The notes under the pieces are model-generated. The model ran no database searches, was not told the origin of the DNA, and saw only the letters and a list, made by a program, of their open reading frames with translations. This document shows positions 8,719 through 30,513 of a stretch of DNA of 64,000 bases, piece by piece. This DNA is from Actinomycetospora corticicola (GTDB taxonomy: Bacteria; Actinomycetota; Actinomycetes; Mycobacteriales; Pseudonocardiaceae): NCBI RefSeq assembly GCF_013409505.1, contig NZ_JACCBN010000001.1, positions 5,022,001-5,086,000 on the forward strand, written 5' to 3'. Each line of letters starts with the position of its first letter. The first letter of the stretch is position 1. A program made the translations under genes and the position numbers.

Positions 8719-8727
8719 GAGCCTTCG

Positions 8728-10056
8728 GTGAAGATTTCGCAGAAAGCGCTCCCGTGGATCCAGACCGCGATCCTCGTCGTGTTCATGGTGGTCAGCCTGG
8801 TGTTCTACGCGATCTTCTGGGTGGGGGCCGGCGGCAAGATTCCGCTCGTCACGTCCACGCCCTACTCGGTGACGTTCCTGTCGCCGATCAACAAGAACCT
8901 GGTCGACCAGAGCCAGGTGACGCTGAACGGCGTGCCCGCCGGGCGGGTCATCGGCCTCGAGGTGATCGACGGGATCGCGCACGTGCGGACCGGCCTCGGG
9001 GACCTGCCCGACTACGGCCCGCTCCACGAGGGCGTCAAGGCCCAGGTGAAGACGAAGACCCTCATCAATGAGACCTACGTCGACATCACCGACGGGAACG
9101 GCCCGCCGCTGCCGGACCAGGCGGTCATCCCGATGGGCAACGTGACCCCGCCGGTCGACACCGACGAGGTCATCCGGGCCCTGCCCCAGGCCGACCGGAA
9201 GAACCTCGGCGCGACCATCCAGTCGCTGGACAAGGTCACCCAGGGCCAGCAGGCCGGTATCTCGCAGACCATCGGCAGCCTGGGGGAGCCCACCCGGTAC
9301 GTGCCGGCCGCGCTCGACGCCCTGAGCCGCCAGGAGGTGGCCCTGCGCCAGCTCTCGTCGAACACGGCGAAGGTGCTCGACGCGCTGGACACCCGGCAGG
9401 GGCAGATCGCACAGCTCGTCGAGGACGCGCAGAAGGTCACCAAGGTGACCGCGGACAGCCGGGACGATCTCTCCGCCGTCATCCAGAAGCTCCCGCCGAC
9501 GCTGGTGACCGCCCAGGCCGCCAGCCCGGATCTGTCCCGGCTCGGGGCGGCGCTGCAGCCGGTGGCGGAGAACCTCAACGAGGCCTCCGGACCGCTGAAC
9601 GACGCACTCCACCAGCTGCCGGGGACGGCGAAGGACCTGCGCGGACTGCTGCCGGCGCTGAACTCGGTGCTCGATAAGGCACCGGCCACGCTGCAGCGGG
9701 TGCCGGACTTCTCGGACAACCTGCGGGCCGTGGTGCCCCCGGGCCGGGAGTTCTTCTCGGCGCTCAACCCGGTCCTGGCCTACCTCAAGCCCTGTGGCCC
9801 GAACGTCGCGCCGTTCTTCGTGAACTTCTCGAAGGGCCTCGTCCGGCCCAACGGCCTCGACGGCGGAACGGTGGGTGGCGTCGCCCCGCAGTTCGGCTAC
9901 GACACCCTCCAGCCGCCCGCGGCGCTCCCGCTGAACCTCAGCCCGTTCGCGTTCAGCTACGACGTCGGCAATCCGCCGAACCGCAACGCGGTCGGTCAGC
10001 AGCCGGGCCTCAACAATGCGGGCTGCAACACCCCGTTGAAGCCCTACACTCGGTAA
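8728..10056 (+). CDS. MCE family protein 6
   Basis: Last MCE protein, 442 aa, with a GTG start 9 nt after the previous stop and an agga ribosome site overlapping that stop. N-terminal anchor (about residues 11-34), MCE domain about 42-118 (KTLINETYVDITDGNG), long helical region, and a C-terminal domain with cysteines (YLKPCGPNV, NNAGCNTPL) as in MceF-like proteins. It is followed after 19 nt by the RND transporter, so the operon probably continues. Confidence 0.9.
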   Translation: MKISQKALPWIQTAILVVFMVVSLVFYAIFWVGAGGKIPLVTSTPYSVTFLSPINKNLVDQSQVTLNGVPAGRVIGLEVIDGIAHVRTGLGDLPDYGPLHEGVKAQVKTKTLINETYVDITDGNGPPLPDQAVIPMGNVTPPVDTDEVIRALPQADRKNLGATIQSLDKVTQGQQAGISQTIGSLGEPTRYVPAALDALSRQEVALRQLSSNTAKVLDALDTRQGQIAQLVEDAQKVTKVTADSRDDLSAVIQKLPPTLVTAQAASPDLSRLGAALQPVAENLNEASGPLNDALHQLPGTAKDLRGLLPALNSVLDKAPATLQRVPDFSDNLRAVVPPGREFFSALNPVLAYLKPCGPNVAPFFVNFSKGLVRPNGLDGGTVGGVAPQFGYDTLQPPAALPLNLSPFAFSYDVGNPPNRNAVGQQPGLNNAGCNTPLKPYTR

Positions 10057-10075
10057 CTGGCCAGAATCGCTCCGT

Positions 10076-12496
10076 ATGTGGACATCACGGCTCTTACGGC
10101 GAGGCGCCCCCGCTGCCGCGGGCGCCTCGCCGCGGGTCTCCCCGACAGAGCGGCTCGCGGCGCTCGGGCGGCGGCTCCGCCGCCCGGGCCGGCGGGACGT
10201 GGTGGGCCTGGTGGCGGGGCTCCTGGTCGCCGTCTTCCTCGTCGGTGGCCTCGCCCAGGTCCGGGTCGAGACCGGCGCGGACTCGTTCCTCCCGTCGGGC
10301 GATCCCTCGCTGGCCCGGCTGAACGAGCTGGGCCAGTCCTTCGGCGGGGACCCGATCGTCGTCCTGCTCGAGAACCCGCAGCCGCGGGCCCTGCTCGCGA
10401 CCCAGCAGCTGCCCGGGGTCCTCGACCTCGAGCAGCAGCTCGGCAGCGCCCCGGACGTGGCGGCGCTCTACGGGCCGGTGACGACCCTCAACAACATCGC
10501 CGGTCAGGCACAGCTCGTCATCGCCGAGATGCTCGGTCGGCGCGACGGCCTCGGGAACGCGGCCCGACAGGACGCCCTGAAGGCCGGCGCGTCCGCGGCG
10601 GACGCCGACGCGGCCGCCGCCCAGGCCCAGGCCCAGTTCGACAACCGGTACGCGCCGACGATCATCGAGGCGCTGCCGACTGGCCTCCCCACGCTCAAGA
10701 ACCCCCGGTTCGTCTCCAACGTGGTCTTCGACCCGACTGGCACGGTCAAGCCGCGGTGGCACTACGTGGTGCCGAACGCGAACTCGTTGGCGATCCTCGT
10801 CCGCCCCCGTGCCGAGCTCGACCAGGCCGGCACGCAGCGGCTCGTCGCCACCGTCGAGCAGGCCGCCCACAGCGCCGCCCTGCCGCCGGGGACGACGGTG
10901 ACCGTCTCGGGTGTGCCGACGATCGTCGCGGCGCTCGGCGCGTCGGTCGACACGCAGATACCGATCATCGGAGCGGTCGCGGTCGCAGCCATCGGACTGG
11001 TGCTGTTCCTGGTGCCGTGGACCGGACGCCGACGTCGGCTCCTCCCGCTCGCGGTGACCCTGCTGGCCACCGGGATGACGGTGGCGGGTCTCGGCTGGGT
11101 GGGCCATCCCCTCTCGCTCGGGGTCCTCGCCTTCCTCCCGGTCCTGCTCGGCCTCGGCAGCTACTACCCGACCTACTTCGCCCAGCGGGCGCGGAGCCGG
11201 GTCGTGTTCGTGGTCGCGGGGGCGTCCGCCCTCAGCTTCGCGACGCTCGCCCTCACCCCGTTGGCGTTCGTCCGCGACCTCGGGATCACCCTCGCCGTCG
11301 GGATCGCCTTCGCCGTCGCACTCGGTGCCGTGCTGGTCCGGCGGGGGGCGGACGGTGCCGTGGCCGCACCCGTCCCGGTCCTTCCCGAGCCTGCTCCTGC
11401 GGCGCCTCGTGGGGTCCGGTTCGGGCTGGGTGCCGGAGTGCTCGCCCTTGCGCTGGCCGGATGGGCGCTCCTCGGCACGATGCCGCTGCAGACCAACATC
11501 CAGGACCTGGCGCGCGGCCTGCCCGCCCTCGCGGACGCCAACCACGTCCAGGACGTGATCGGCACGAACGGTGAGCTCAACCTGGTGCTGCGCTCCGACG
11601 ACGACCCGGCGACCCCGGAGGCCGACGTGCGCAGCCCGGAGGCCTGGCAGTGGATGCAGGCCGCCAACCAGCGCATCGTCGTCGACCACGGTGACGTGAT
11701 GAGCCCGGTGCTCTCGCTGCCGGGACTGCTGGACTTCCTCGGCCCCGCCCCCACCGCCGACCAGATCCAGGCCGGTCTGCGGCTCATGCCGAGTGCGTTG
11801 ACGAGCTCGGTGGTCCGTGGGGACGGCCGGATGGCCAACATGTCCTACGGGGTGTCGCTCGACGATCTCGGCGCGCTGGCCGCCGTGACCCGGCAGGTCA
11901 CGGCCGAACTCCCGCCGCCACCGCCCGGGATGACGGCCGAGCTGACCGGCCTGCCGACCGTGGCCGTCCGGGGCTACGAGGTCGTGTCCTCCGACCGCTA
12001 CCTGGCCAGCGTGGCCGGGGTGCTGGCCGCGGGCCTCGTGCTGGCTCTCGGGCTGCGCCGTCGGGTGGACGCCGTCCGGGCGGTCCTGGCGGCGGTCATC
12101 GCCACCGGCGGCACACTCGTCCTGCTGTGGTCGACGGGGACCGCGCTGAGCCCTCTGACCGTGGCCCTCGGTTCGCTCACGGCCGCCGTCGGGTGCGAGT
12201 TCACCGTGATGGTGTCGCAGTCCGTGCGGCGCCGTGACCGCAGTCTGCGGCGCGCGGTGTCGCTCGCCGCCGGGACGTCGGCCATCGGCTACGCCGTGCT
12301 GGCGGTCTCGCCTCTCGCCCTGATGCGGGAGTTCGGTCTCCTCCTCGCGGCCTCGGTCGTCCTGTCCTGGGCCGCGGCCCTCTTCGTGGTCTGGGTGTGG
12401 CCCCCGAGTGACGCGCCGGTCACCGCGACCGCGCCCGAGGCCGCGCCGGAGCCCGATCCCGCGTCCTCCGTCCCCGCGAGCATGGGAGCCCGCTGA
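10076..12496 (+). CDS. RND/MMPL-family membrane transporter
   Basis: 806-aa RND-superfamily exporter in the MMPL/hopanoid-RND style. Topology shows two repeats: a TM near residues 42-60, a large extracytoplasmic loop (about 61-295), then a bundle of five or six TMs, a repeat of TM plus loop, and a second bundle at the C-terminus (about 640-785). The first loop begins with VETGADSFLPSGDPSLARLN, the usual RND start of the porter domain. No good ribosome site precedes ATG 10076, so translation may be coupled to MCE 6. Its place directly after six mce genes suggests a lipid-handling partner, as MmpL proteins are in mycobacteria; direction and cargo are inference. Confidence 0.85.
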   Translation: MWTSRLLRRGAPAAAGASPRVSPTERLAALGRRLRRPGRRDVVGLVAGLLVAVFLVGGLAQVRVETGADSFLPSGDPSLARLNELGQSFGGDPIVVLLENPQPRALLATQQLPGVLDLEQQLGSAPDVAALYGPVTTLNNIAGQAQLVIAEMLGRRDGLGNAARQDALKAGASAADADAAAAQAQAQFDNRYAPTIIEALPTGLPTLKNPRFVSNVVFDPTGTVKPRWHYVVPNANSLAILVRPRAELDQAGTQRLVATVEQAAHSAALPPGTTVTVSGVPTIVAALGASVDTQIPIIGAVAVAAIGLVLFLVPWTGRRRRLLPLAVTLLATGMTVAGLGWVGHPLSLGVLAFLPVLLGLGSYYPTYFAQRARSRVVFVVAGASALSFATLALTPLAFVRDLGITLAVGIAFAVALGAVLVRRGADGAVAAPVPVLPEPAPAAPRGVRFGLGAGVLALALAGWALLGTMPLQTNIQDLARGLPALADANHVQDVIGTNGELNLVLRSDDDPATPEADVRSPEAWQWMQAANQRIVVDHGDVMSPVLSLPGLLDFLGPAPTADQIQAGLRLMPSALTSSVVRGDGRMANMSYGVSLDDLGALAAVTRQVTAELPPPPPGMTAELTGLPTVAVRGYEVVSSDRYLASVAGVLAAGLVLALGLRRRVDAVRAVLAAVIATGGTLVLLWSTGTALSPLTVALGSLTAAVGCEFTVMVSQSVRRRDRSLRRAVSLAAGTSAIGYAVLAVSPLALMREFGLLLAASVVLSWAAALFVVWVWPPSDAPVTATAPEAAPEPDPASSVPASMGAR

Positions 12497-13608
12497 TGCT
12501 GACCGTCGAACGCCCCCGCCTCTCCTCGACCGTGGACGCGATCCGGCGCCCACGGCCGCCCCGGACACGGCTGCGTCGGATCCTCGTCGGCGTCCTCGTC
12601 GCCGTGCTGACCGTTGCGTCGGCCGTCGCCGTCCCGGTCGTGATGGGTCTGGTCCCCGCCGTGTACTCGCCGCCGCTGCCGGCCGACGCCGCCTTCGCCG
12701 TGGGCGACCGGACGGTGACCAGGGCGGAGTACGACAAGCGACTGAAGACGATCCAGGCGCTCTACGGTGCGCAGGAGCCGACCGACCCGGCCGGCGCCGA
12801 CCGCTTCCGGCGGGACTCGGCGAAGGCGATGGCCGTGGCCGACGTCCTGACGAACGCCGAGGCCGACCGCGGCATCGTCATCCCGGACACCAGGATCCGG
12901 CAGGCGATGGATCAGATGGTCCAGGCCCAGTTCGGTCAGGGACCCGACGGGTACCAGAAGTTCGTCGGCGCCCTCGGGCAGGTGGGGACGTCGGAGGCGG
13001 AGGTCCTGGACGAGATCCGGCAGCAGTACGCGTCGGCGGAGCTGATCAAGCAGGTCACGGACCCGGTCCAGGTCAGCGACGCCGAACTCCCCGCCGAGTT
13101 CCCGAAGTACGCCGCGCAGCTCGGCACGCCGGAACAGCGCAAGCTCTCCAACATCGTCGTCCAGACGCAGGACCAGGCGAACGACGTCCTCGCGAAGCTC
13201 CGCGCCGGCACCCCGTTCGCCGACCTCGCCCGCACGCAGAGCCTGGACGGCAGCACGAAGGACGCCGGCGGCGACCTCGGGCAGCCGGTGACGGCGGACA
13301 AGCTCCAGGCCGGCTACGCCCAGGCTGCGTTCGCAGCTCCGAAGGGACAGCCGTTCGGGCCGGTGCAGACCCAGCAGGGCTGGAACGTCGGCCTCGTGAA
13401 CGACGTCGTCCCCGGGGTGCCGGCCGACTTCGCGCAGGCGCAGATCCCTCTGAAGCAGGCCGTCCTCACCGACCGCAAGACCGCGGCCTGGAGCGCCTGG
13501 CTCGAGAACGAGCTGCGCTCCTCCCACGTCCGCTACGCCGACGCCTACCGCCCGGCCGACCCCGACGGCGCTCCGGTGGGTCTCGGCGGGACCCCGGGTG
13601 GCTCGTGA
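12496..13608 (+). CDS. Membrane-anchored parvulin-type peptidyl-prolyl isomerase (SurA/PrsA-like)
   Basis: 370-aa extracytoplasmic foldase. A basic N-terminus and single TM (about residues 30-55) anchor it, followed by a SurA_N-like helical region (about 70-205) and a parvulin PPIase domain (about 215-305) with the characteristic run of ADLARTQSLD, GGDLGQPV and GPVQTQQGWNVGLV. The ATG overlaps the RND stop (TGATG). Location suggests it helps fold the MCE or RND proteins outside the membrane; that link is inference. It has no lipobox, unlike PrsA of Firmicutes. Confidence 0.88.
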   Translation: MLTVERPRLSSTVDAIRRPRPPRTRLRRILVGVLVAVLTVASAVAVPVVMGLVPAVYSPPLPADAAFAVGDRTVTRAEYDKRLKTIQALYGAQEPTDPAGADRFRRDSAKAMAVADVLTNAEADRGIVIPDTRIRQAMDQMVQAQFGQGPDGYQKFVGALGQVGTSEAEVLDEIRQQYASAELIKQVTDPVQVSDAELPAEFPKYAAQLGTPEQRKLSNIVVQTQDQANDVLAKLRAGTPFADLARTQSLDGSTKDAGGDLGQPVTADKLQAGYAQAAFAAPKGQPFGPVQTQQGWNVGLVNDVVPGVPADFAQAQIPLKQAVLTDRKTAAWSAWLENELRSSHVRYADAYRPADPDGAPVGLGGTPGGS

Positions 13609-13817
13609 CCATCAGCGCCCTCTGGCTCCTGATCCCGGCCGCCCTGCTCGTCGTGGTCGGGGTCTGGGGCTGGCGCAACGCGGACGCGCTCGCGCTCTCG
13701 ATGCCGCTCGACGAGCGCACGCAGGAGAAGCGCCGCGGCGTCTACAAGCGCGGTTCGGTGGCCTGCCTGGTGGTCGCGGTCGCCTTCGTCGGCCTGATCA
13801 TCGCGTCCTACCTCTGA
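13605..13817 (+). CDS. Small two-TM membrane protein
   Basis: 70-aa protein with GTG start overlapping the isomerase stop (GTGA). It has two hydrophobic helices (about residues 5-20 and 51-69) joined by a charged loop (DERTQEKRRGVYKRG). No family recognised. Tight overlap makes it part of the mce/RND/PPIase transcript; it could be a small accessory subunit. Confidence 0.7.
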   Translation: MTISALWLLIPAALLVVVGVWGWRNADALALSMPLDERTQEKRRGVYKRGSVACLVVAVAFVGLIIASYL

Positions 13818-13845
13818 TGTCCCTCCCTCCCGACCTGGAGCTCCC

Positions 13846-14373
13846 ATGACCGTCGTCCGGCGCGCCACCGCGCTGCCCGTCCTCTTCGTGGCCCTCGTCG
13901 GCCTCGCCGGCTGCGGCCAGTCCGTGGACGAGGGGCCGGCACCGCAGCTCGCCGGGACCGACACGACGCTGCAGGTCCGGCCGAGCTTCTACGGAGCCAC
14001 GCTGGCCGACGGCACGGGCCGCACGCTCTACCAGTTCGCCGGGGACAGCCCCGGGCGTCCCACCTGCAACGACGCGTGCGCCGAGGTGTGGAAGCCCTAC
14101 CTCGCGAACGGCGAGCCCCGGTCGGCCGACGGGAACAAGAACGCCCTGGACGACGATCAGATCGGCACGATCACGCGCACCGACGGCCGCGCGCAGGTGA
14201 CCTATGCCGGCCACCCGCTGTACTACTACGCCGAGGACGGTGCGCCGGGCGACCCGGTCCGCCCGACGGACATCCGCGGGGCCGGGCTGAACCAGTTCGG
14301 CGGCGTCTGGTCCGCCGTCAGCGGCTCCGGCGCCCCGGTCGCCCCGACCTCGCCGGTCATCGCCCCGCTGTAG
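13846..14373 (+). CDS. Lipoprotein with secreted-repeat domain (COG4315-like)
   Basis: 175-aa exported lipoprotein. Lipobox L-A-G-C gives Cys23 as the lipidated residue. The mature part carries the actinobacterial secreted-lipoprotein repeats: TLYQFAGDSPGRPTCNDACAEVW, shown here as GRPTCNDACAEVWKPY, and a second HPLYYYAEDGAPGD repeat. Such proteins are frequent on actinobacterial surfaces but their biochemical role is not established. A ctggag-like site precedes the ATG. It is the last gene of the mce-linked series and is followed by a hairpin terminator. Confidence 0.85.
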   Translation: MTVVRRATALPVLFVALVGLAGCGQSVDEGPAPQLAGTDTTLQVRPSFYGATLADGTGRTLYQFAGDSPGRPTCNDACAEVWKPYLANGEPRSADGNKNALDDDQIGTITRTDGRAQVTYAGHPLYYYAEDGAPGDPVRPTDIRGAGLNQFGGVWSAVSGSGAPVAPTSPVIAPL

Positions 14374-14419: not shown

Positions 14420-15349
14420 TCAGATCAGGTGCGCCAGCGTCAGCGTCATGACGACGAGGGTGACCACGACGATCCCGATGATCGCCGCCCGCACCATCAT
14501 CGGGTCGATCGTCATCTGCAGGCCGCGCCGTGACTCCCGGTCCCGCTCCCGGTCGGCGAGGATGTCCGCCATCCGGGGAGGTCCGAGGAAGTCCGACACC
14601 CGGAACCGGTGGTCGAAGTCCTCGTTCGAGTCGATGCCGTTCAGCAGCTCGGCCGCGCTGCCGGTGGTGATGATCCGCCCGTTGCAGAGAATCGCCAGGT
14701 GATCGCCCAGCTCGCGGGCCAGCCGGATGTTGTGCGTGGTCAGCAGCAGCGTCCCCTGCGTGCGCTCCCGCCAGCCCGCGAGCGCGGCCAGGATGCGCGG
14801 CGAGTGGGCCGCGTCGAGGCAGACGTCGATGTCGTCGAGGATGAGGGCCGGGCGGTCGGCCACCAGGGCCCGTGCGAGCCCCAGCCGACGGCGGGCGTGG
14901 GCGGGCATCGCGTCGGGCAGGGACGACGCCACCCCGTCGAGCGCGAGGTCGTGCAGCATCGCCATCGCCCGCTGCTCGCGCTCGGCCTCGCCGAACCCGT
15001 GGTGCTTGAGGACGTAGTCGAGGTTCTCGTAGGCGGTGAGCGAGGCGAACAGCGACGAGTCGAACAGCGACGAGCCACCCAGCAGGACGCCCATCCCGTT
15101 GCGGATCTCCCGCAGACCGTCGGGGCCGGAGCCCCAGACGTCGCGGCCGCCGATCTCGACGGTGCCGCGGTCGGGCTCGAGCAACCCGGTCAGGTGCCGC
15201 ACCACCGTGGTCTTCCCCGCCCCGGAGGGGCCCATCACGACGGTGATCTCCCCGGCCGGCACGTCGAGGCCGAGCCGGTGCAGCACGGGGGAGTCGTCGA
15301 TGACGGTGGTGATCCCCGTCAGTCGCATCCCCGGCGCCGCTGCACGCAC
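14420..15349 (-). CDS. Tail-anchored, motif-degenerate Mkl-like ABC ATPase (copy B)
   Basis: 309-aa ABC ATPase related to MlaF/Mkl but with altered catalytic motifs. Walker A GPSGAGKT (40-47) and H-loop His206 are intact. The Q-loop glutamine is replaced by Gly91 (GVLLGG), the LSGGQ signature by PAHAR (149-153), and the catalytic Glu after Walker B by Asp173 (ALILDDID). A C-terminal hydrophobic helix (about 286-306) would anchor the protein in the membrane, which is not usual for MlaF. GTG 15349 lacks a clear ribosome site; ATG 15328 is an alternative. It is transcribed divergently from the operon that ends in a very similar protein at 17258-18235. It may bind ATP but hydrolyse poorly; role unknown. 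Confidence 0.8.
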   Translation of the reverse strand: MRAAAPGMRLTGITTVIDDSPVLHRLGLDVPAGEITVVMGPSGAGKTTVVRHLTGLLEPDRGTVEIGGRDVWGSGPDGLREIRNGMGVLLGGSSLFDSSLFASLTAYENLDYVLKHHGFGEAEREQRAMAMLHDLALDGVASSLPDAMPAHARRRLGLARALVADRPALILDDIDVCLDAAHSPRILAALAGWRERTQGTLLLTTHNIRLARELGDHLAILCNGRIITTGSAAELLNGIDSNEDFDHRFRVSDFLGPPRMADILADRERDRESRRGLQMTIDPMMVRAAIIGIVVVTLVVMTLTLAHLI

Positions 15350-15464
15350 GAGGAGCCACTGTAGGAGAACTGTGAGGGAACAGACCCCGACGACGGGGAA
15401 GCGTGTCCGTCCGAGGGAGGCCCCTGCCCCGGGCGGGGGACGCGAGCGCGTCCGGACGGCCTTC

Positions 15465-15479
15465 TATCATGCAAACGTG
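15465..15479 (+). promoter_or_regulatory. Possible leaderless promoter (-10 TATCAT)
   Basis: TATCAT at 15465-15470 lies 6 nt before GTG 15477, the spacing expected when transcription starts at the start codon, a common actinobacterial arrangement. No convincing -35 element and no ribosome site are seen. If translation instead begins at ATG 15504 the mRNA would have a short leader. Confidence 0.4.
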
Positions 15480-15989
15480 ATTCTGCCCAAGGTGACGCGT
15501 CCCATGGCTGCGGTCGTCCAGGACTGGAGGGTGGGCCGCTACCCGTGGCAGCTCCTGGTGGCCGTCGTGTGCTGGGTGGTGGTGGCGGTCTCGCTGCTCA
15601 CCTCGCAGATCGGGGTGCCGACCCCCACCGACGCCGACGCTCAGCGGGACACGCTGAACGACGCGGGCACGGTCGTGTCCACCACCGCGCAGGACAACTG
15701 GTTCGTGCCGCTGCTGCCCTGGCTGGGCGTGGTGGTGGTCCTGCTCGCCGTGGCCCTGCTGCTGGCGCAGGGCTGGTCGCGGATCCCGCTGGCCGCCTGT
15801 GGCCTGATCGCGGTCGTCGGGCTCGCGCTGGGCGCGGCCTGGCAGGTGTTCCCCGCGATGGCGGGCTTCCTCGTCGGCTCGGTCTTCCTCGTCCTGCTCC
15901 CGACGCACCGCTACCTCCAGGGCCCGCGCCAGGATGACTCCGCGGTCGGGCCGCCGGCCGAGTCGACCGAGAGGACCGTGACGCCCTGA
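15477..15989 (+). CDS. Hypothetical membrane protein, about four TMs
   Basis: 170-aa integral membrane protein, family not recognised. Hydrophobic segments at about residues 22-40, 76-98, 100-118 and 124-140, with a polar loop between the first two (TPTDADAQRDTLNDAG) and an acidic C-terminus. Start may be GTG 15477 (leaderless) or ATG 15504. It opens a short operon (overlap TGATG with the next gene) that ends with ATPase copy C, so it may belong to the same membrane complex. Confidence 0.7.
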   Translation: MILPKVTRPMAAVVQDWRVGRYPWQLLVAVVCWVVVAVSLLTSQIGVPTPTDADAQRDTLNDAGTVVSTTAQDNWFVPLLPWLGVVVVLLAVALLLAQGWSRIPLAACGLIAVVGLALGAAWQVFPAMAGFLVGSVFLVLLPTHRYLQGPRQDDSAVGPPAESTERTVTP

Positions 15990-16495
15990 TGGCCTCCAAG
16001 CCCGCCGGCAAGCAGAAGCCGCTGCCGAAGCCGCCCAAGGGCGCGACCACCCCGCCGCAGCCGCGGACGGCGTCGTCCACGCGGCCCTCCCCGGCCAAGC
16101 CCACCTCCACGACGGCCGCCCCGGCGGCCCGGCCCGCGCAGGTCGACGTCGGCGCCATCGCCCGTGGCATCAGCTCGGGCTTCATGATCCTGGTCTTCGG
16201 CGGGCTCATCCAGCCCGTCGTCACCGCCTTCGTGCCGGTCGTCGGCATGTTCTGGCTGATCCTCGTCGCGGTCACGGCCTTCGCCTTCGCCGGCTACCGC
16301 GTGGGGCTCGCCTGCCCGAACCCGCCGCTGCACGGTGCGGGCGCCGCGGTCGGTAGCTACCTGCTCGTGGTGCCGCTGATGTTCCTGCAGGGCACGTTCG
16401 ACCCGCTGTACACCGTCTTCTCGTTCGTGGCGGCAGCAGTCGTCGGTGGAGCGGCCGGCCGGATCGCCGGCCGCTCGCGGTCCACCGCGAGCTGA
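15989..16495 (+). CDS. Hypothetical membrane protein with Lys/Pro-rich cytoplasmic leader
   Basis: 168 aa. The first 50 residues are Lys/Pro/Ala/Thr-rich and disordered, followed by about four hydrophobic helices from residue 58 to 160. No family recognised. Its ATG overlaps the previous stop by one base and it precedes the TM/zinc-ribbon-like gene by 94 nt. Cooperation with the flanking ATPases is only inferred from gene order. Confidence 0.7.
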   Translation: MASKPAGKQKPLPKPPKGATTPPQPRTASSTRPSPAKPTSTTAAPAARPAQVDVGAIARGISSGFMILVFGGLIQPVVTAFVPVVGMFWLILVAVTAFAFAGYRVGLACPNPPLHGAGAAVGSYLLVVPLMFLQGTFDPLYTVFSFVAAAVVGGAAGRIAGRSRSTAS

Positions 16496-16589
16496 GCGAG
16501 AGCCGACCGGGCTCCCCACCGGTCCCGTCGTCACACCGGACATCGCCGTGCCGGTCCCCACCACGGCGCCCAGGGAGGACCTCCGTCCC

Positions 16590-17261
16590 ATGCTCATCGG
16601 CGTTCTCGTGGTCGTGGCCCTCGCGCTCCTCATCAGCGCCTTCCTCACCGGCACCACCGTGCTGGCGGGAGCGGCCCTCGTGGTCAGCCTCGCGGCCGCC
16701 GTCCTGTACGTGATCGCGCTGCGGCGCGACCCGGACGGCGCCGACGGCTCGGCCGCTGCCACGGCGGAGGACGGGCCGGAGGCGCCGGTCGAGAAGACCG
16801 CTGCGGCTGCGGGCACCGACCAGGAACGGGCGACGGCGACCGAAGCCGCCGTCGCGAAGACGCCGGAGAAGAAGACGCCGCAGAAGAAGGCGCCGGAGAA
16901 GGCGGCCGCGCCCGCCGTCGCGAAGACACCGGAGAAGGCGCCGGAGACGAAGGCGCCCGAGAAGAAGGCGCCGGAGAAGGCGGCCACGCCCGCCGTCGCG
17001 AAGGCGCCCGAGAAGAAGGCGCCGGAGAAGGCGACCTCGCCCGCCGTGACGACGGCGCCCGAGACGTCCGCGGCGGCACCGGAGCTCGCGGGGACGACCG
17101 TCGTCCACGTCGTCCCGGGCCGGATGCGCTACCACGTGCAGGGCTGCCAGGTGATCGACGGCCAGCAGGTCGAGGACCTCACCGTCGACGACGCCCGCGA
17201 CGAGGGCTTCACGGCCTGCAGCCGCTGCGCGGCGCGCGGACGGTCGCACGCCACGGCATGA
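16590..17261 (+). CDS. Two-TM protein with KAPEK repeats and C-terminal Cys-rich (HxxxC...CxxC) domain
   Basis: 223 aa. I chose ATG 16590 because an aggaggac ribosome site lies about 9 nt upstream. Two TMs occupy about residues 3-44. A Lys/Ala/Pro/Glu low-complexity linker (about 60-170) includes a 51-bp (17-residue) tandem duplication starting at 16950 and 17001. The C-terminal 50 residues form a compact domain, VPGRMRYHVQGCQVI then FTACSRCAAR, with one His and three Cys spaced like a small zinc-binding module. The linker looks built to hold a cytoplasmic domain away from the membrane. The stop overlaps the start of ATPase copy C. Function unknown. Confidence 0.75.
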   Translation: MLIGVLVVVALALLISAFLTGTTVLAGAALVVSLAAAVLYVIALRRDPDGADGSAAATAEDGPEAPVEKTAAAAGTDQERATATEAAVAKTPEKKTPQKKAPEKAAAPAVAKTPEKAPETKAPEKKAPEKAATPAVAKAPEKKAPEKATSPAVTTAPETSAAAPELAGTTVVHVVPGRMRYHVQGCQVIDGQQVEDLTVDDARDEGFTACSRCAARGRSHATA

Positions 17262-18235
17262 CCCCGGCGCGTCGACGGCCGAACCGGGACGGGGCGGTGC
17301 GGCTCACGACCGCGCCGGCGATCCAGGTCGACGGCATCAGCAAGTCCTTCGAGGGCGACCGCGTCCTCGAGGACATCTCGCTCGACGTCGCCCCGGGTCG
17401 GACCCTGGTGGTGATGGGGCCGTCGGGGGTCGGGAAGACGACCCTCACGCGGATCCTGCTGGGCCTGGAGACGGCCGACGACGGGTCCGGTGACGTGACG
17501 ATCGGCGGCCATGTCGTCGGCGACCTCGACCCGGCGCGACTCCGGGAGTTCCGTCAGGGCTTCGGAGTCCTCCTCGGCGGCACGTCGGTCTACGAGGGCT
17601 CGGTCTTCGCCTCCATGAGCGCGTGGGCGAACGTCCGCTATCCCCTCGAGGCCCGCGGCTACGACGCGGCCACGGTCGAGGCGCGGGGGTGGAACCGGAT
17701 GGTCGAGTTCGACCTCGTCGACGTGGCCCACCATCTCCCGGACGCACTGTCCTCGGGCACGCGACGGCGGCTCGCGCTCGCGAAGTCGTTCGTCGACGAC
17801 CCGCACCTGCTGGTCCTCGACGATCCCGGTGCGGCGATGGACCGCACCAACCGCACGACCCTCGTCGAGTCGATCCGCCGGGCCCGGGCGCACACCGACG
17901 CGACCATGGTCCTGACGTGCCACGACATCGAGATGGCTCGCGCCCTGGGAGACGACCTCGTCGTCATCCTCGCCGGCCGCATCGTCGAGACCGGGCCCGT
18001 GGCGGAGCTCCTCGACGGTGTCGTCGACGCCGAGACCTGGGACCGGCGGTTCGGCTTCAGCACGTCCTTCGCCGAGACCGACGACCGGAGCCGGAGCACC
18101 TACGCGCGGGTCGAGGACGCCCGCCGCGAGGTGACCTCGTGGCACTGGGCGGTCTACCTCGTCCTCCTGCTCATGGGGCTGGCCACCCTGATCGCGATCC
18201 TGTCGGGCGTCATCGACAACGTCGTCACGTTCTGA
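17258..18235 (+). CDS. Tail-anchored, motif-degenerate Mkl-like ABC ATPase (copy C)
   Basis: 325-aa paralogue of the ATPase at 14420-15349. Walker A GPSGVGKT (54-61) and H-loop His222 are intact. Gln of the Q-loop is Gly107 (GVLLGG), the signature is SSGTR (165-169) and Walker B ends LLVLDD with Asp189 in place of catalytic Glu. The C-terminus is a strong TM helix (about 298-318). The shared GVLLGG(S/T)S segment, shared E-to-D change and shared tail anchor show B and C are closer to each other than to the intact ATPase at 1043-1888. They could form a heterodimer; no YrbE permease gene lies beside them. Its ATG overlaps the upstream stop (ATGA). Confidence 0.82.
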   Translation: MTPARRRPNRDGAVRLTTAPAIQVDGISKSFEGDRVLEDISLDVAPGRTLVVMGPSGVGKTTLTRILLGLETADDGSGDVTIGGHVVGDLDPARLREFRQGFGVLLGGTSVYEGSVFASMSAWANVRYPLEARGYDAATVEARGWNRMVEFDLVDVAHHLPDALSSGTRRRLALAKSFVDDPHLLVLDDPGAAMDRTNRTTLVESIRRARAHTDATMVLTCHDIEMARALGDDLVVILAGRIVETGPVAELLDGVVDAETWDRRFGFSTSFAETDDRSRSTYARVEDARREVTSWHWAVYLVLLLMGLATLIAILSGVIDNVVTF

Positions 18236-18465
18236 TCATTCGTCGCAGGGCGCCCACGATCGGCCCCGGACGCCGACCCGGCGGGGTGGACGCTCGGCAG
18301 CGGGACGGTCCCGGGGCCTACCCCCAGCGGGGGATCGGTGCCCTCGATCGGCAGATACGGGCCCGGGATCGCACCGCTGCGCCATGGGACTCGTTACGTC
18401 GACAACATCCCCCGGCGGGTCCGCCCCGTCTGCTCGTCCAGCTCCCCCCGCAGTGGAGGTCGTCC
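18236..18465. other. Intergenic region, no gene seen
   Basis: 230 bp between ATPase copy C and the QPAAA-repeat gene. It should hold the promoter of the repeat gene, but I see no convincing -35/-10 pair. Short G/C-rich inverted repeats are present without a clear terminator. Confidence 0.4.
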
Positions 18466-19263
18466 GTGTCCCTGTCCGCGCGCACCCGCGCTCTGACCGT
18501 CGGCGTGCTCGCCGTGGCCGCCGCCTCGCCGGCCGTCGCGCTCGCCGCCCCGGCCCCCGCCGCCGCCCCGGCCCCGGCCGCCGCTCAGCCCGCTGCCGCG
18601 CAGCCGGCCGCTGCTCAGCCGGCCGCTGCTCAGCCCGCTGCGGCCCAGCCCGCTGCGGCCCAGCCGGCCGCTGCTCAGCCCGCTGCGGCCCAGCCGGCCG
18701 CCGCGCAGCCCGCCGCCGCGCAGCCCGCTGCGGCTCAGCCCGCTGCGGCTCAGCCCGCTGCGGCTCAGCCCGCCGCCGCGCAGCCGGCCGCGGCCCAGCC
18801 AGCCGCGGCCCAGCCGGCCGCCACGCAGCCCGCCGCCGCTCAGCCCGCTGCGGCCCAGCCGGCCGCCGCTCAGCCGGCCGCGGCCCAGCCCGCCGCCGCT
18901 CAGCCCGCTGCGGCTCAGCCGGCCGCGCAGCCAGCCGCTCCGGAGTCGCCGATCATGAGCGTGTTCAGCGCGCTCACCGGCGTGCCGGCGCCCGCCCCGG
19001 CCGCGCAGCCCGCCGCCGCGCAGCCCGCGACCGCCCAGCCCGCCGCCGCGCAGCCCGCGGCCGCCCAGCAGGTGGCGCCGGCCCAGGAGGCCGGCAAGCA
19101 CCGCGCCGCCGACACCACGAAGGCGGCCGAGAAGAAGGCCGACACCGGCGAGGGCAAGCACGCCAAGAAGGACGACGGCGCCAAGAAGGACGACGGCGCC
19201 AAGAAGGACGAGGCGAAGGACGGCTCGAAGGCCGCCCTCAGCGGGATGCACCTCAACCTCTGA
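18466..19263 (+). CDS. Secreted Ala/Gln/Pro-repeat protein
   Basis: 265-aa exported low-complexity protein. GTG 18466 is preceded by a ggagg site (18455-18459). A signal peptide (about residues 1-28, TVGVLAVAAASPAVALAAP) is followed by 22 tandem QPAAA pentads, a short non-repeat insert (APESPIMSVFSALTGVPAP), further QPA units, and a Lys/Asp-rich tail containing repeated DDGAKK. It resembles a rod-like cell-wall or surface protein; Ala/Pro and Lys-rich tails are typical of cell-wall-associated actinobacterial proteins. No enzymatic domain and no sorting motif are seen. Family not recognised. Confidence 0.75.
   Translation: MSLSARTRALTVGVLAVAAASPAVALAAPAPAAAPAPAAAQPAAAQPAAAQPAAAQPAAAQPAAAQPAAAQPAAAQPAAAQPAAAQPAAAQPAAAQPAAAQPAAAQPAAAQPAAAQPAATQPAAAQPAAAQPAAAQPAAAQPAAAQPAAAQPAAQPAAPESPIMSVFSALTGVPAPAPAAQPAAAQPATAQPAAAQPAAAQQVAPAQEAGKHRAADTTKAAEKKADTGEGKHAKKDDGAKKDDGAKKDEAKDGSKAALSGMHLNL
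18586..18915 (+). repeat. 22 tandem copies of a 15-bp QPAAA-coding repeat
   Basis: Units begin with CAG every 15 nt from 18586 to 18901 and encode Gln-Pro-Ala-Ala-Ala, one copy reading QPAAT. Synonymous third positions vary (ccg/ccc/cca; gct/gcg/gcc), so the array is maintained at protein level and is not a recent perfect expansion. Copy number could vary between strains. Confidence 0.95.
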
Positions 19264-19337: not shown

Positions 19338-19745
19338 TCAGCCCACCTGGTGAGCCGCCCGGTCCGCGTCGCGCGCGGCGACGTCGGCGGCCGAGCAGAA
19401 CCCGCGCCCGTGCCGCTTGAGGCACAGCAGGCCGAGCAGGACCCCGGCGGCGTCCACGACGGCGAGCCGCCGCTGACCGCGGGCCGCCATCGCCCGCCGG
19501 GTGGTCTCCAGGTCGTCCCCCGGAGCGGCCACCCGCCCGGTCACCGCACCCACCGAGCGGGCCCGGGCCGCGTCGGGGACGCCCTCGAGGTCCGCCCGCT
19601 CGACGACCGCGACGAGGACGTCGCGGTCGACGAGCAGCAGCGCGTGCACGTGACCGTCGAGGAAGAACGCGCGTGCCGCGCCCACGGACACGTCGGGTCC
19701 GTGGACCTTGGGTGTCCGCAGGTGGGCCTCGGCGACGGTCCCCAT
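19338..19745 (-). CDS. CBS-domain pair protein
   Basis: 135-aa protein consisting of two CBS motifs, the adenosyl-ligand binding Bateman module: first half about residues 1-65 (VSVGAARAFFLDGHVHALLL), second about 66-130 (DDLETTRRAMAARGQRRLAV). ATG 19745 lies 2 nt after the stop of the molybdopterin oxidoreductase on the same strand, so the two are one transcript. It could sense nucleotides to regulate its neighbour. No other domain. Confidence 0.85.
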   Translation of the reverse strand: MGTVAEAHLRTPKVHGPDVSVGAARAFFLDGHVHALLLVDRDVLVAVVERADLEGVPDAARARSVGAVTGRVAAPGDDLETTRRAMAARGQRRLAVVDAAGVLLGLLCLKRHGRGFCSAADVAARDADRAAHQVG

Positions 19746-19747
19746 GA

Positions 19748-21883
19748 TCAGACCGGGGTGACCTCGACGCGGGTGTCGGAGAACGTCGGTGCGTTCCCCA
19801 GGTCCGCGAAGACGAACGGGTTGACGGCGTTCACCGTGGTGCCCTCCTTCGCGTTCTTGCCCCACGATCCCATGGGACAGACCACGACGCCGGGTGCGAT
19901 CTCCTCGGAAATCTTCGCGAGGGCAACGAACCGGCCGCGGTCGTTGGACACCGCGACGTAGTTCCCCTCGTCGATGCCCCGGGCCTGCGCGTCGGCCGGG
20001 TGGATCGTCACCGTCTGCTCGCCCTGGACCCGCTTCTGCATCGCCTGGTCGCCCGCGCTCGAGTTGATGTACGCGTGGGACTTCGGCGAGAGCAGGTTCA
20101 GCGGATACAGCTCGCTGCGTTCGCGCGGGGCGATGTAGTGCGGCAGCGGGTCGACCGGGGTGCCCGGCTGGTGGTCGTCGGAGAGCTGCCGGAACAAGTT
20201 CACGACGAAGTTGCCCATCGCCTCCAGCGCGGAGCTCCTGAACTCCGTCTTCCCCGACGGCGTCGGGAAGTTGCCGTCGGCGTGCGGGCGGTACTCGTCG
20301 GGACCGGGGAGGTTGAGCCGGGCCCATCCGGTCTCGCGCAGCGACTCGAGGGTGATGCCCTCCATCGCGGGGGCCGACCAGTCGTAGGCCTGGGCGAGCA
20401 GTTCCTCGTCGGAGAGCTGGAAGAAGTCGTCGTCGAAGCCCATGGCCGCGGCGAGGCGGCGGAACAGCTCGGTGTTGGGCACCGACTCGCCCTCCGGCTC
20501 GATCGCCGGGATGTTCAGCGTGACGTAGAAGTGGCCCCAGCTGAACATGATGTCGTGCTGCTCGAGCTGGGTGGTCGCGGGCAGCACGATGTCGGCGTAC
20601 CGCGCGGTGTCGGTCAGGAAGTGGTCGCTGACCACCGTGAAGAGGTCCTCGCGCTCCAGGCCCTTGGCGATCTTCTCCTGCTCGGGGGAGACGACCATGG
20701 GGTTCGAGTTGTAGACCATCAACGCCGTCACCGGGATGTCGAGGTCCATCTCGCCGGTCAGCGCCCGCCCCAGCAGGAACTGGTTGATCACCCGGGTGCC
20801 GGGGGTGCGGTACTCGGGGTGGATGAACGCGGGCCAGTTGACCGGGTGCGCCCACAGCGGCAGCTGCAGCAGGCCGCCGCCGACGTGCTTCCAGGCCCCG
20901 ACGAGGGCGGGGAGGCAGGCGATCGAGCGGACGGTCTGTCCACCGCCGGCGTGGCGCTCGATGGCGACGCCGATGCGGATCATCGAGGGGTCGGTGGTGG
21001 CGTACTCGCGGGCGAGGGTGCGGATGTCCTCGGCCGGGATGCCGGTCTCCTCGGAGGCCCACTCCGGGGTGTACTGCGCCACGCGCTCGGAGAGCTCGTC
21101 GAACCCGAGGGTGTGCTCGCGGACGTACTCCTCGTCGTGCAGGCCCTCGGTGATGATCACGTGCATCATCGCGAGGGCGAGCGCGCCGTCGGTGCCCGGG
21201 CGGATCGGGATGTGCCAGTCGGCGCGGCGGGCGGTCTTGTGGCGCATCGGGTCGATGCAGACGACCTTCGCGCCGCGCTTCTGCGCCTCGGCGATGACCG
21301 GCCAGAGGTGCAGGTTCGTGGAGATCGTGTTCGAGGCCCAGATGATGATGTACTTCGAGTGCACGATGCTCTCGGGGTCCACGCCCGCCGTCGCGCCGAC
21401 GGTGGAGGCGTAGGCGGTGCAGGCGCCGGAGTCGCAGTAGGTGCGCTCGGTGACCGTGGCGCCCATGCGGTGGAAGAAGGCGTCGCCGGCCGACAGGCCG
21501 TTGAGGATGCCCTGCGTCCCGAGGTAGCTGACCGGCATCACGGTCTCGGCCCCGTGCTCGGCGATCTTCGCCTGGAACGTCGACGCGATGGTCTCCAGCG
21601 CCTCGTCCCAGGAGATCCGCTCGAAGCGGCCGAGGCCCTTCGGTCCGACCCGCTTCATCGGGTACAGCAGGCGGTCCGGGCTGTAGGTCTTGTCGGGGTA
21701 GTTGTTGACCTTGACGCAGAGCCCGCCGCGGGTGACCGGGTGGTCGGGGTCGCCGGCGACGTTGGTCGCGCGGCCGTCCTCGACGGTCACGAGCATCGCG
21801 CAGGTGTCCGGGCAGTCGTGCGGGCAGGCGGCGCGGACCGTGGTGGTGGTCGGCGTCAGGGTCAGGTCGTCCAGAGCGGTCAC
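19748..21883 (-). CDS. Molybdopterin-dependent oxidoreductase, [4Fe-4S]-containing (BisC/FdhA-like)
   Basis: 711-aa DMSO-reductase-superfamily enzyme. The N-terminal 4Fe-4S motif is C20-x3-C24-x3-C28-x27-C56, followed by the Mo-bis-MGD domains and a C-terminal dinucleotide-binding domain (about 600-705, LNLLSPKSHAYINSSAG). The segment TYCDSGACTAYAS lies where the Mo ligand is expected. I prefer GTG 21883, which has AGGAG five nt upstream; GTG 21889 is also open. No Tat signal is visible, so it is probably cytoplasmic. No iron-sulfur or membrane subunit is adjacent, so its electron partner is unknown. Only the CBS gene shares its transcript, and the divergent AraC gene may regulate it. Confidence 0.85.
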   Translation of the reverse strand: MTALDDLTLTPTTTTVRAACPHDCPDTCAMLVTVEDGRATNVAGDPDHPVTRGGLCVKVNNYPDKTYSPDRLLYPMKRVGPKGLGRFERISWDEALETIASTFQAKIAEHGAETVMPVSYLGTQGILNGLSAGDAFFHRMGATVTERTYCDSGACTAYASTVGATAGVDPESIVHSKYIIIWASNTISTNLHLWPVIAEAQKRGAKVVCIDPMRHKTARRADWHIPIRPGTDGALALAMMHVIITEGLHDEEYVREHTLGFDELSERVAQYTPEWASEETGIPAEDIRTLAREYATTDPSMIRIGVAIERHAGGGQTVRSIACLPALVGAWKHVGGGLLQLPLWAHPVNWPAFIHPEYRTPGTRVINQFLLGRALTGEMDLDIPVTALMVYNSNPMVVSPEQEKIAKGLEREDLFTVVSDHFLTDTARYADIVLPATTQLEQHDIMFSWGHFYVTLNIPAIEPEGESVPNTELFRRLAAAMGFDDDFFQLSDEELLAQAYDWSAPAMEGITLESLRETGWARLNLPGPDEYRPHADGNFPTPSGKTEFRSSALEAMGNFVVNLFRQLSDDHQPGTPVDPLPHYIAPRERSELYPLNLLSPKSHAYINSSAGDQAMQKRVQGEQTVTIHPADAQARGIDEGNYVAVSNDRGRFVALAKISEEIAPGVVVCPMGSWGKNAKEGTTVNAVNPFVFADLGNAPTFSDTRVEVTPV

Positions 21884-23073: not shown

Positions 23074-23205
23074 GCCGGGCGGTCCGGGGGAGGGGTAGCC
23101 CCGAAGAGGCAGGAACTCCCCGCCCGCGGCTGATGTGATCGACTGTGGCGTGGGTAACCATCCGGGGCGACCAACGACGGCCGACACTGCAGCGAGGACC
23201 CACCC

Positions 23206-24795
23206 GTGTACCCCGGAACGTTCGCGAGGACCAGCCCCGACAAGCCCGCCGTCGTCATGGCGGACACCGGGAAGTCGCTCACCTACGCCGAGCTCGAGGA
23301 CCGCTCGATCCGCCTCGCCCACGTGCTGCGCGAGGCCGGCCTGCGGCCCGGCGGCCACGTCGCGCTCATCGCGACGAACAGCCCCGAGGTCTTCGTCGTC
23401 TACTGGGCCGCCGTGCGCTCCGGGCTCTACATCACCGCGGTGAACCACCACCTCTCCGTCGACGAGGCCGCCTACATCGTCGACGACTGCGGGGCGACCG
23501 CCCTGATCGTCTCCGCGGACCGGGCGGAGCTGGCCGCATCCGTCGTCGGGAGGACCCCGCAGGTCGCGGAGCGCCTGGCCTACGGCGGTGCCGTGGAGGG
23601 CTTCGAGGACTACGAGGCCGCGCTCGCGGCCGCGTCCGGCGAGGAGCCGGCCGACCAGCCGGCGGGCGTGGACATGCTCTACTCCAGCGGCACCACCGGC
23701 CGCCCCAAGGGCATCCAGCCCGCACGGCCCACCCGCGAGGTGCACGAGCCCGGCGAACCGTTCGTCTCGATCTTCGGCCCGCTGTTCGGCTTCGACGAGA
23801 GCGTCGTCTACTACTCGCCCGCGCCGACCTACCACGCCGCACCGCTGCGCTTCGGCGGGATGGTGCTCGCCACCGGCGGCACGCTGGTGATGACGCAGGG
23901 CTTCGAGGCGGAGCAGGCGCTGCGCGTCATCGCCGAGCACGGCGTCACGCACTCGCAGTGGGTCCCGACCATGTTCGTCCGGATGCTCAAGCTCGACGAG
24001 GCGGTCCGCGCGGGCTACGACTGCTCGACGGTCAGGGTCGCGATCCACGCCGCGGCGCCGTGCCCGGTCGACGTGAAGCAGTCGATGATGGACTGGTGGG
24101 GCCCGGTGCTCTGGGAGTACTTCTCCTCCACCGAGGCCAACGGGATCACGCTCATCTCGCCGCAACAGTGGCTCGACCACCCCGGCTCGGTCGGCCAGTC
24201 CGAGCTCGGCACCATCCGGATCTGCGACACCGAGGACCCGGACGCGCCGGAGCTGCCCGCCGGGCAGGTCGGCACGATCTTCTTCGAGCGCCCGCAGCGG
24301 CCCTTCGAGTACCACCACGACCCGGAGAAGACCCGCGAGGCGACGCACCCGCACCACGGGACGTGGACGACGACGGGCGACGTCGGCTACGTCGACGACG
24401 AGGGCTTCCTCTACCTGACCGACCGCAAGGCGTTCATGATCATCTCGGGCGGGGTCAACATCTACCCGCAGGAGATCGAGAACTGCCTGACGATGCACCC
24501 GGCGGTCTTCGACGTCGCGGTCATCGGCATCCCCGACCGGGAGATGGGCGAGCAGGTCAAGGCCGTGGTGCAGCTCGCGGCCGGGCACGAGGGCTCCGAC
24601 GCGCTCGCGACGGAGCTGATCGAGCACGTGAAGGCGTCCATCGCCCGCTACAAGGCGCCGCGGTCGGTCGACTTCGTCGACGACCTGCCCCGCACGGCCA
24701 CCGGCAAGTTGGTCAAGGGCGAACTCCGCAAGCAGTACCTCGAGGCAGGCGGAGACGAAGCGAAGCGGAGCTCGACCATGAAGGCAGGGGTGTAG
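23206..24795 (+). CDS. Acyl-CoA synthetase / AMP-dependent ligase (FadD-like)
   Basis: 529-aa ANL-superfamily enzyme that activates a carboxylic acid to acyl-AMP and acyl-CoA. The P-loop motif YSSGTTGRPKG (about residues 163-173) is intact, followed by the A5 region EYFSSTEANG, TGDVGY, and the C-terminal hinge DRKAFMIISGGVNIYPQEIE. The A10 lysine is in RTATGKLVKGELRK. GTG 23206 has a gagg site about 9 nt upstream. It heads a string of acyltransferase genes separated by only a few nt, so it probably supplies their acyl-CoA. Chain length and substrate cannot be deduced. Confidence 0.9.
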   Translation: MYPGTFARTSPDKPAVVMADTGKSLTYAELEDRSIRLAHVLREAGLRPGGHVALIATNSPEVFVVYWAAVRSGLYITAVNHHLSVDEAAYIVDDCGATALIVSADRAELAASVVGRTPQVAERLAYGGAVEGFEDYEAALAAASGEEPADQPAGVDMLYSSGTTGRPKGIQPARPTREVHEPGEPFVSIFGPLFGFDESVVYYSPAPTYHAAPLRFGGMVLATGGTLVMTQGFEAEQALRVIAEHGVTHSQWVPTMFVRMLKLDEAVRAGYDCSTVRVAIHAAAPCPVDVKQSMMDWWGPVLWEYFSSTEANGITLISPQQWLDHPGSVGQSELGTIRICDTEDPDAPELPAGQVGTIFFERPQRPFEYHHDPEKTREATHPHHGTWTTTGDVGYVDDEGFLYLTDRKAFMIISGGVNIYPQEIENCLTMHPAVFDVAVIGIPDREMGEQVKAVVQLAAGHEGSDALATELIEHVKASIARYKAPRSVDFVDDLPRTATGKLVKGELRKQYLEAGGDEAKRSSTMKAGV

Positions 24796-30111: not shown

Positions 30112-30513
30112 ATGGCTTTCTTCAACGACTCCGCCGAGGTCGACAAGTACATCGGTGGCGTCTTCCGCGCCGCCAACGACCACCCCGAGTCCGGCCCGAA
30201 GCTGCGGTCGTCGGGCATCTTCCTCAAGGTCTTCTACACCGACCCCGCCACCGAGATGAACATCGTGATGCACGAGCCCACGATGGAGGTGTCGCTCGGC
30301 TCCACCGACGAGAAGCCCGACATCACGCTGATGATGAAGGCCGACACCGGCGACAAGTTCTGGCGCGGCGAGTACAACCTCGCCGTCGGCCTGGCCAAGG
30401 GCGAGGTCAAGGCCAAGGGCCCGGTCAACAAGATCCTCAAGCTCGTCCCCCTCACCAAGCCGCTCTTCCCGATGTACCGGGAGCTCGTGGCCGAGAAGGA
30501 CGCCTCGGCCTGA
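30112..30513 (+). CDS. SCP2-like sterol/lipid carrier domain protein
   Basis: 133-aa soluble lipid-binding protein of the SCP2 superfamily, consisting of the single domain: N-terminal helix, beta strands (MNIVMHEPTMEVSLG, DITLMMKADTGDKFWRGEYN) and GLAKGEVKAKGPVNKIL, a typical SCP2 signature. ATG 30112 has an aggag site 7 nt upstream. It precedes the dehydrogenases and the P450 by 43 nt and may present a hydrophobic substrate to them. Such proteins often sit beside P450 or steroid-degradation genes. Confidence 0.85.
   Translation: MAFFNDSAEVDKYIGGVFRAANDHPESGPKLRSSGIFLKVFYTDPATEMNIVMHEPTMEVSLGSTDEKPDITLMMKADTGDKFWRGEYNLAVGLAKGEVKAKGPVNKILKLVPLTKPLFPMYRELVAEKDASA

Follow-up and report, generated by a model that had tools for sequence, protein, structure and literature searches.

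Altered, predicted tail-anchored relatives of mce-type ATPases as candidate regulators of an mce-MMPL importer in Actinomycetospora

Organization of the locus

Mce importers serve the carriage of lipids across actinobacterial envelopes, and in our view little is known about their control beyond regulators such as Mce1N. The DNA analysed here (the window, 64,000 nucleotides) belongs to a genome of 6.17 Mb, assembled in a single contig, of the family Pseudonocardiaceae (G000:C1:5022001-5086000). It contains an mce operon with its own motor ATPase, named A, and next to it two further ATP-binding cassette (ABC) ATPases, named B and C, which are the subject of this work. The closest named relatives of protein C are from Actinomycetospora. 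The region 168-14373 is a single mce operon, which is followed by B, convergent on the minus strand, and by the genes of three small proteins (M1, M2 and M3) and of C on the plus strand. Both ATPase reading frames pointed out by an earlier, sequence-only reading of the window are present where it placed them. The features are as follows:

168-869, plus strand: YrbE permease; five related loci have copies 66-78% identical next to A and MCE genes
1034-1888 (approximate, putative start), plus strand: ATPase A, canonical Mkl/MceG-type nucleotide-binding domain (NBD) with Q-loop Gln, SGGM, DEP and His intact
1894-3165, 3166-4578, 4578-5918, 5915-7405, about 7402-8718 and 8728-10056, plus strand: six MCE protein genes, given as open reading frames
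10076-12496, plus strand: MMPL protein, HAE3-like (PF03176; TIGR00921 at 135 bits, below cutoff)
12496-13608, plus strand: SurA-like peptidyl-prolyl isomerase (PF13145, PF13616, PF13624)
13599-13817 (putative start), plus strand: small membrane protein of the mce operon, conserved after SurA in other mce-MMPL loci
13846-14373, plus strand: lipoprotein (PF03640), convergent with B
14420-15349, minus strand: ATPase B, 309 residues from GTG, predicted tail-anchored pseudo-NBD of the B clade (PF00005, motifs, tree, AlphaFold model, Foldseek)
15477-15989, plus strand: M1, small membrane protein divergent from B, with several hydrophobic segments seen by eye
15989-16495, plus strand: M2, small membrane protein with a Pro/Ala-rich N terminus
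16590-17261, plus strand: M3, with N-terminal hydrophobic segments, an Ala/Pro/Lys-rich middle and a C-terminal YHxxGC..CSRC motif
17258-18235, plus strand: ATPase C, 325 residues, predicted tail-anchored pseudo-NBD of the C clade (PF00005, motif table, tree)

The product of the first gene is presumably YrbE, a label which we assign from its position in the operon and from recognition of its sequence. This gene lies about 13.5 kb from B. The earlier statement that no YrbE permease stands beside B and C is refined to this extent, that a YrbE gene is present in the same locus. The six MCE genes keep a collinear order in five related loci, and the only one scanned (8728-10056) matches MlaD and Mtu_fam_mce, the latter below cutoff. 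ATPase A clusters with other mce-operon ATPases in the trees, and its ISGGM signature has two differences from LSGGQ, both outside the SGG core. Passages of Casali and Riley (2007; PMC1810536) describe mce-linked ATPases as keeping the Walker motifs and the signature, the latter defined by no more than one mismatch to LSGGQ.

Motifs and C-terminal tail of ATPases B and C

Both proteins are recognised by PF00005 (B 73.9 bits, C 71.6 bits, gathering cutoff 25). The alignment with ATPase A of the same operon confirmed that Walker A and the H-loop His are retained in B and C and that the Q-loop Gln is lost, as had been read from the sequence. In the Q-loop region A has GVCWQ-DGALFGSM, B has GVLLGGSSLFDSSLFASL and C has GVLLGGTSVYEGSVFASM; the stretch of B and C is devoid of Gln and contains several inserted residues. 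The signature, described earlier as lost from both proteins, is ISGGM in A, MPAHA in B and LSSGT in C. This description is appropriate for B, in which all three core residues are altered, but too strong for C, in which one core residue is altered. After Walker B, the FDEP of A corresponds to LDDI in B and LDDP in C, which places Asp at the position of the catalytic Glu in both window proteins.

A C-terminal hydrophobic helix, which had been claimed for both proteins, is also predicted. The AlphaFold model of B (mean pLDDT 87.5, with a weaker Q-loop block of about 70) predicts a helix at residues 283-308, with a 19-residue Kyte-Doolittle value of 2.67, and a similar hydrophobic stretch in C reaches 2.72. 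Within the last 70 residues of 43 comparison ATPases, none reached 2.4 and the best value was 1.82.

Both genes are under purifying constraint. When the window was compared with two further Actinomycetospora genomes, the ratio of nonsynonymous to synonymous substitution rates (dN/dS) was 0.24-0.31 for B and C, 0.25-0.29 for the SurA-like gene and 0.19-0.20 for the MMPL gene. Ordinary decay of the window copies was ruled out by these ratios and by the recurrence of the changes in 26 related proteins.

A separate clade and its distribution

The motif table and the tree comprised 26 clade sequences (20 B-type and 6 C-type) and the 43 comparison ATPases, namely 39 Mkl-like proteins and four from other ABC families (42 distinct sequences, several near-identical; L011, L012 and L052 were excluded). 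The comparison ATPases from the search loci had been pre-filtered on SGG[MQ] and GKS and therefore provide no control for those motifs. Walker A is intact in all 26 clade members and the H-loop His in 25, the exception being G247 with Asn. The Q-loop Gln is absent from every one of them and present in 43/43 comparison ATPases. No homologue with an unaltered SGG core was found (0/26). The catalytic position is less uniform, with Asp in 16 members and Glu in 10, and the change to Asp is thus excluded as the defining feature of the clade, although it holds for the window proteins. The A-loop aromatic residue is retained in 5/6 C-type and 0/20 B-type proteins. The tail helix is conserved in 25/26, the exception being the C-type protein G932b, and its absence from the 43 comparison ATPases ruled out a chance hydrophobic tail.

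In the trees all 26 proteins formed one clade with ultrafast bootstrap (UFBoot) values of 97-98, within which the B clade received 98 and the C clade 99. This clade was placed outside the canonical Mkl/MceG clade, in trees with four non-Mkl rows only. On this sequence evidence B and C share a common ancestry, and the set is a predicted tail-anchored, altered variant outside canonical Mkl/MceG. Among open-licence PMC papers, no title or abstract opening describing tail-anchored altered ATPases of this kind was found.

A B/C profile separates the clade from other ATPases in the family sample, where true members score above 250 bits and match through the tail, while the others stay below 196 bits and end before it. 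Carriers were 8/249 genomes of the family, 3/18 of Actinomycetospora, 14/62 of a second genus (g5, E 1e-56) and 1/19 of a third (g43). The weakest matches in g5 were a tail-less C-type protein at 231 bits and a broken B copy at 210 bits. At E 1e-58 the order sample (397 genomes) gave two carriers, which belong to the same family as the window, and the class sample (394 genomes) gave one, the window's own genome; a wider home for the clade was not borne out by these two samples. In the samples searched the clade is thus confined to three genera of one family and one contig of a metagenome-assembled genome (L023, 3.6 kb), which carries a C-type protein and is labelled Deltaproteobacteria, a label that may be a binning error. 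The search with protein C gave 11 loci, eight of which (L024-L031) are weaker at 23-32% identity.

With a broader profile, 87/396 genomes of the phylum sample passed E 1e-50, most of them scoring like the canonical ATPase A (210 bits), and none of the 11 loci read outside the window's own genome (L157-L167) combined all the features of the clade. Two of them, L157 and L158 (G1304:C6, G1211:C63), from another actinobacterial family, encode Mkl-like proteins with a longer Q-loop that keeps its Gln, an SAG signature and Asp for Glu. Both lack the tail helix and cluster with canonical Mkl (UFBoot 89), and nothing matching the YrbE/MCE proteins of the window was seen within about 9 kb of them; they apparently represent, by their sequences, an independent case of altered mce-type ATPases. 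In L167 (G593:C1:226268-226966), the 604-residue frame that encodes a canonical Mkl-like ATPase includes a hydrophobic stretch near its end (Kyte-Doolittle 2.39).

Association with mce-MMPL operons

The tie of B to the neighbouring mce importer, suggested by the sequence-only reading, is supported by gene order in several lineages. An mce-MMPL operon that contains an intact ATPase A of its own is no more than 25 kb away from 15 of the 20 B-type genes: those of the window, L021, L022, G182, G167, G082, G256, G247, G922 (twice), G950, G957, G939 and G967 (twice). Two others, both in G959, are truncated by contig ends. Among the C-type genes four of six are near mce-MMPL, G932b is not, and L023 is truncated by contig ends. 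The position of B depends on the lineage: one group has it downstream of the operon and another upstream, and in G247 it is about 10 kb off. A copy of the small membrane protein encoded at 13599-13817 directly precedes the B gene in G965 and in one G959 contig.

An MMPL match was present in 8/8 carriers of the family, against 29/249 genomes overall (hypergeometric 1.3e-8, relatedness uncorrected). In g5 it was present in 12/14 carriers and in 4/24 non-carriers tested (Fisher 8e-5, or 2e-5 once G924 with its broken B is excluded; relatedness uncorrected in both). In the tree of mce proteins eight B loci formed one clade (UFBoot 100), while the rest stood among B-less loci, with weak deeper nodes. 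Because this tree mixes B loci with B-less loci, B looks like an add-on that has been kept or lost repeatedly.

Near the B genes of G965 (L106-L107) and G932 (L112-L113), which have no mce genes nearby, are a TetR-like gene and, upstream, a larger gene that in G965 encodes a GAF-LuxR regulator (PF00196). B-like genes spread over two frames occur in G924 (L138, about 805-1691) and G943 (L125-L126, joined 19557-20551) and may be broken copies or assembly errors.

Proposed role of B and C

In the Foldseek comparison of the B model with the PDB, the first three ranks by E-value were taken by MlaF (6xgy, 6xbd) and MceG (8fed), and further ABC domains followed closely. Sequence and model thus support B and C as altered, membrane-tailed relatives of mce-type ATPases. 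They share with Mkl/MceG and MlaF the fold, Walker A, the H-loop and the linkage to mce, and many members retain the xLFxS(M/L) stretch after the Q-loop; they differ in the missing Q-loop Gln, the altered SGG, Asp or Glu at the catalytic position, the tail helix and the separate clade. Because B and C are altered and membrane-tailed, and gene order links them to an mce importer, a regulatory role, as opposed to that of a classical transporter, appears the better reading, and here the sequence-only reading is upheld.

Our tentative proposal, the leading one although held with less than even confidence, is that B and C are membrane-tethered pseudo-NBDs of the mce type (type VIII, MlaF/MceG-like) which dock on YrbE and regulate the importer. 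NBDs of this type would have been converted into tethered forms that probably still bind nucleotide, with poor or no turnover. The retained NBD fold would let them dock on the YrbE permease of the neighbouring mce-MMPL importer, where they would sit beside the operon motor A or replace it, and the tail helix would hold B in the membrane near the permease. In an ABC site, Walker A, Walker B and the Gln come from one chain and the signature from the other. A pair of B with A would have no consensus ATP site, because neither the Q-loop Gln of B itself nor the signature which would complete the site of the partner is left; B would thus spoil both composite sites. Docked B might therefore idle or gate the importer, as a decoy or a gate, and the effect would probably be restraint. 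C may bind ATP better than B, because of its A-loop aromatic residue and near-normal signature, and could pair with B where both occur. We infer the mce-type origin, the nucleotide binding, the lack of turnover, the docking on YrbE and the direction of the effect. Since both the Gln and the signature are changed in it, a clade of pseudo-NBDs like this would offer a natural test of which parts of an ABC motor are needed for docking and which for turnover.

That the clade consists of dedicated, membrane-tethered dominant-negative NBDs, which join the genuine motor of the mce-MMPL importer in a pair or take its place, seems to us rather unlikely. If it were true, the importer would be switched by the swapping of NBDs and not by an inhibitor protein of another kind.

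Known systems offer partial parallels. MceG is described as having a C-terminal extension of about 120 residues which contacts the neighbouring MceG subunit and which is not presented there as a membrane helix (PMC9882608). Mce1N (MSMEG_0959/Rv0513), a mycobacterial membrane protein, is described as blocking the binding of MceG to YrbE1B (PMC10517005). It resembles the role proposed for B and C in that a membrane protein would act on the docking of an NBD to YrbE, but it is unrelated to them and the likeness is one of proposed mechanism only: Mce1N is a two-transmembrane protein with a C-terminal cytoplasmic domain, whereas B and C each consist of an ABC domain and a single predicted tail helix. 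The degenerate NBDs of heterodimeric ABC transporters such as TAP1/TAP2 are, in the account given in PMC12422388, parts of full transporters in which one composite site stays consensus. They share with B and C natural changes at catalytic residues and the possibility that ATP is bound without hydrolysis; in B, unlike in TAP1/TAP2, a single chain combines the two kinds of loss, and its only membrane part is the tail helix.

Several observations weigh against the proposed role. No mce gene lies within 20 kb of the three B-type genes of G923, G965 and G932a (about 20 kb read on each side), and the association expected of homologues therefore holds for most loci but not for all, these three and one C-type gene standing apart. 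G923 carries B and gave no MMPL match; neither did G943, whose two-frame B copy adjoins other mce-like genes. B lies outside the operon and is patchy, and it is not essential to mce-MMPL importers, because 21 of the 29 family genomes with an MMPL match have none. As to origin, CbiO and LptB match the B model about equally by TM-score, a sequence-profile search of the PDB places DppD, Rv1281c and ABCB1 (up to 193 bits) above MceG (156 bits), and in NCBIfam drrA, proV and PhnT2 rank best, none of the 25 models shown passing its cutoff. Since these best matches lie elsewhere and the trees hold only four non-Mkl rows, descent of B and C from an mce ATPase is not proven by sequence. Some ATPase activity is possible, because ten B-type proteins keep the catalytic Glu and the C signature is nearly canonical. 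Conversely, the B clade may bind ATP badly, because none of the 20 B-type proteins retains the A-loop aromatic residue.

Alternative explanations and linked genes

In an asymmetric motor, B would be a stable subunit that pairs with A on the two different YrbE permeases, so that, as in TAP, one site would work and the other would not hydrolyse ATP. Related loci do hold two different YrbE genes, the linkage of B with A is conserved and the catalytic Glu is kept in 10/26 proteins. Without Gln and signature in B, however, neither A-B composite site would be consensus, unlike in TAP, and both the position of B outside the operon and its absence from most MMPL-match genomes speak against a fixed subunit. 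We consider this explanation unlikely and rank it below the leading proposal.

Less likely again is an independent membrane-bound B-C (or B-B) switch which includes M1-M3. B is divergent from the M1-M2-M3-C run in three Actinomycetospora genomes, and the near-canonical signature of C could complete the site of B. The obligate B-C module envisaged by the sequence-only reading did not hold, however: a C-type match was obtained in only 5/18 B-carrying genomes and in none of the other 13, at cutoffs of E 1e-45 (family) and 1e-56 (g5, g43), below which a weak C-type protein could fall, and in genomes that are mostly drafts, where an absent C may be an assembly gap. Nor are M1 and M2 partners specific to B and C, as had been tentatively suggested. 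M1 lies beside B in G182, G167, G082, G950, G967 (two loci) and G922, but also near MMPL in G924 and G926, both without an intact B match. M2 was found in 20/29 MMPL-positive genomes (six of the 20 being the source of its profile) and in 0/19 MMPL-negative ones; among 22 further g5 genomes it was present in 4/4 MMPL-positive genomes without full-length B and in 0/8 MMPL-negative genomes. Because both occur at mce-MMPL loci without intact B, M1 and M2 are better seen, from their distribution, as accessories of mce-MMPL systems more widely. They may be compared with LucB and LucA, named in PMC9882608 as small membrane accessories of Mce1; the M2 profile had no match in the PDB up to E 1, and assignment of M2 to a known fold failed on a poor AlphaFold2 model (mean pLDDT 56). 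M3, looked for in seven loci only, gave full-length matches in two other Actinomycetospora loci and only short or low-complexity matches (E 6e-5 or worse) in the five family loci, which also counts against a switch involving M1-M3. It matched no Pfam family. By eye, its C-terminal YHxxGC...CSRC motif resembles a small metal-binding element.

The locus is also linked to oxidation genes. In G182, G167, G082, G950 and G967 an acyl-CoA ligase, an SCP2-like protein, alcohol and aldehyde dehydrogenases, a P450 and a ferredoxin reductase are encoded near B. Between 23203 and 34487 the window holds five of these six, all but the ferredoxin reductase, 65-82% identical to the copies near B in G182:

23203-24744, plus strand: acyl-CoA ligase, 65% identical
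30112-30510, plus strand: SCP2-like protein, 82% identical
30557-31600, plus strand: Zn alcohol dehydrogenase, 81% identical
31618-33123, plus strand: aldehyde dehydrogenase, 76% identical
33204-34487, plus strand: P450, 70% identical

Genes for these five are conserved close to B in genomes of g5. The G182 ligase matches best the acyl-CoA synthetase model NF009929, below cutoff. In the PDB, the G182 P450 matches CYP268A2 best (6bld, 447 bits), followed by CYP125 and CYP124. These P450s act on branched lipids and sterols, as partly indicated by the entry names methyl-branched lipid omega-hydroxylase and steroid C26-monooxygenase. The presence of such genes at many B loci points to uptake and oxidation of a hydrophobic compound, and the substrate of the importer may be branched or isoprenoid-like; the linked genes give a handle on the possible substrate class of the mce-MMPL importer.

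B might instead serve this oxidation set, for example by sensing substrate or energy state at the membrane, an explanation which we regard as improbable and place below the B-C switch. Of the 15 mce-linked B loci, 11 contain an SCP2-like gene and 6 a P450, against 2 and 1, respectively, of 10 B-less mce-MMPL controls, the loci differing in length (there were 11 control loci, of which G924 carries a broken-frame B, while G136 and G002 are only 19 kb long). TetR, P450 or ferredoxin-reductase neighbours are also found at the three B genes without mce nearby. Against such a role, 15/20 B-type genes are near mce, two of these loci lack the set (G967b, and G922a with aldehyde dehydrogenase only), and the predicted fold is nearest to MlaF/MceG. 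Least probable of all is that B and C are working ATPases with unusual motifs which power an unrecognised permease, since the conservation of Walker A (26/26), His (25/26) and, in part, Glu (10/26) is set against the absence of the Q-loop Gln and the alteration of SGG in all 26 proteins, and no permease gene other than YrbE was seen constantly beside them.

Directly after C, the reading frames at 18384-19263 of the window contain a long run of AAQPA-type repeats.

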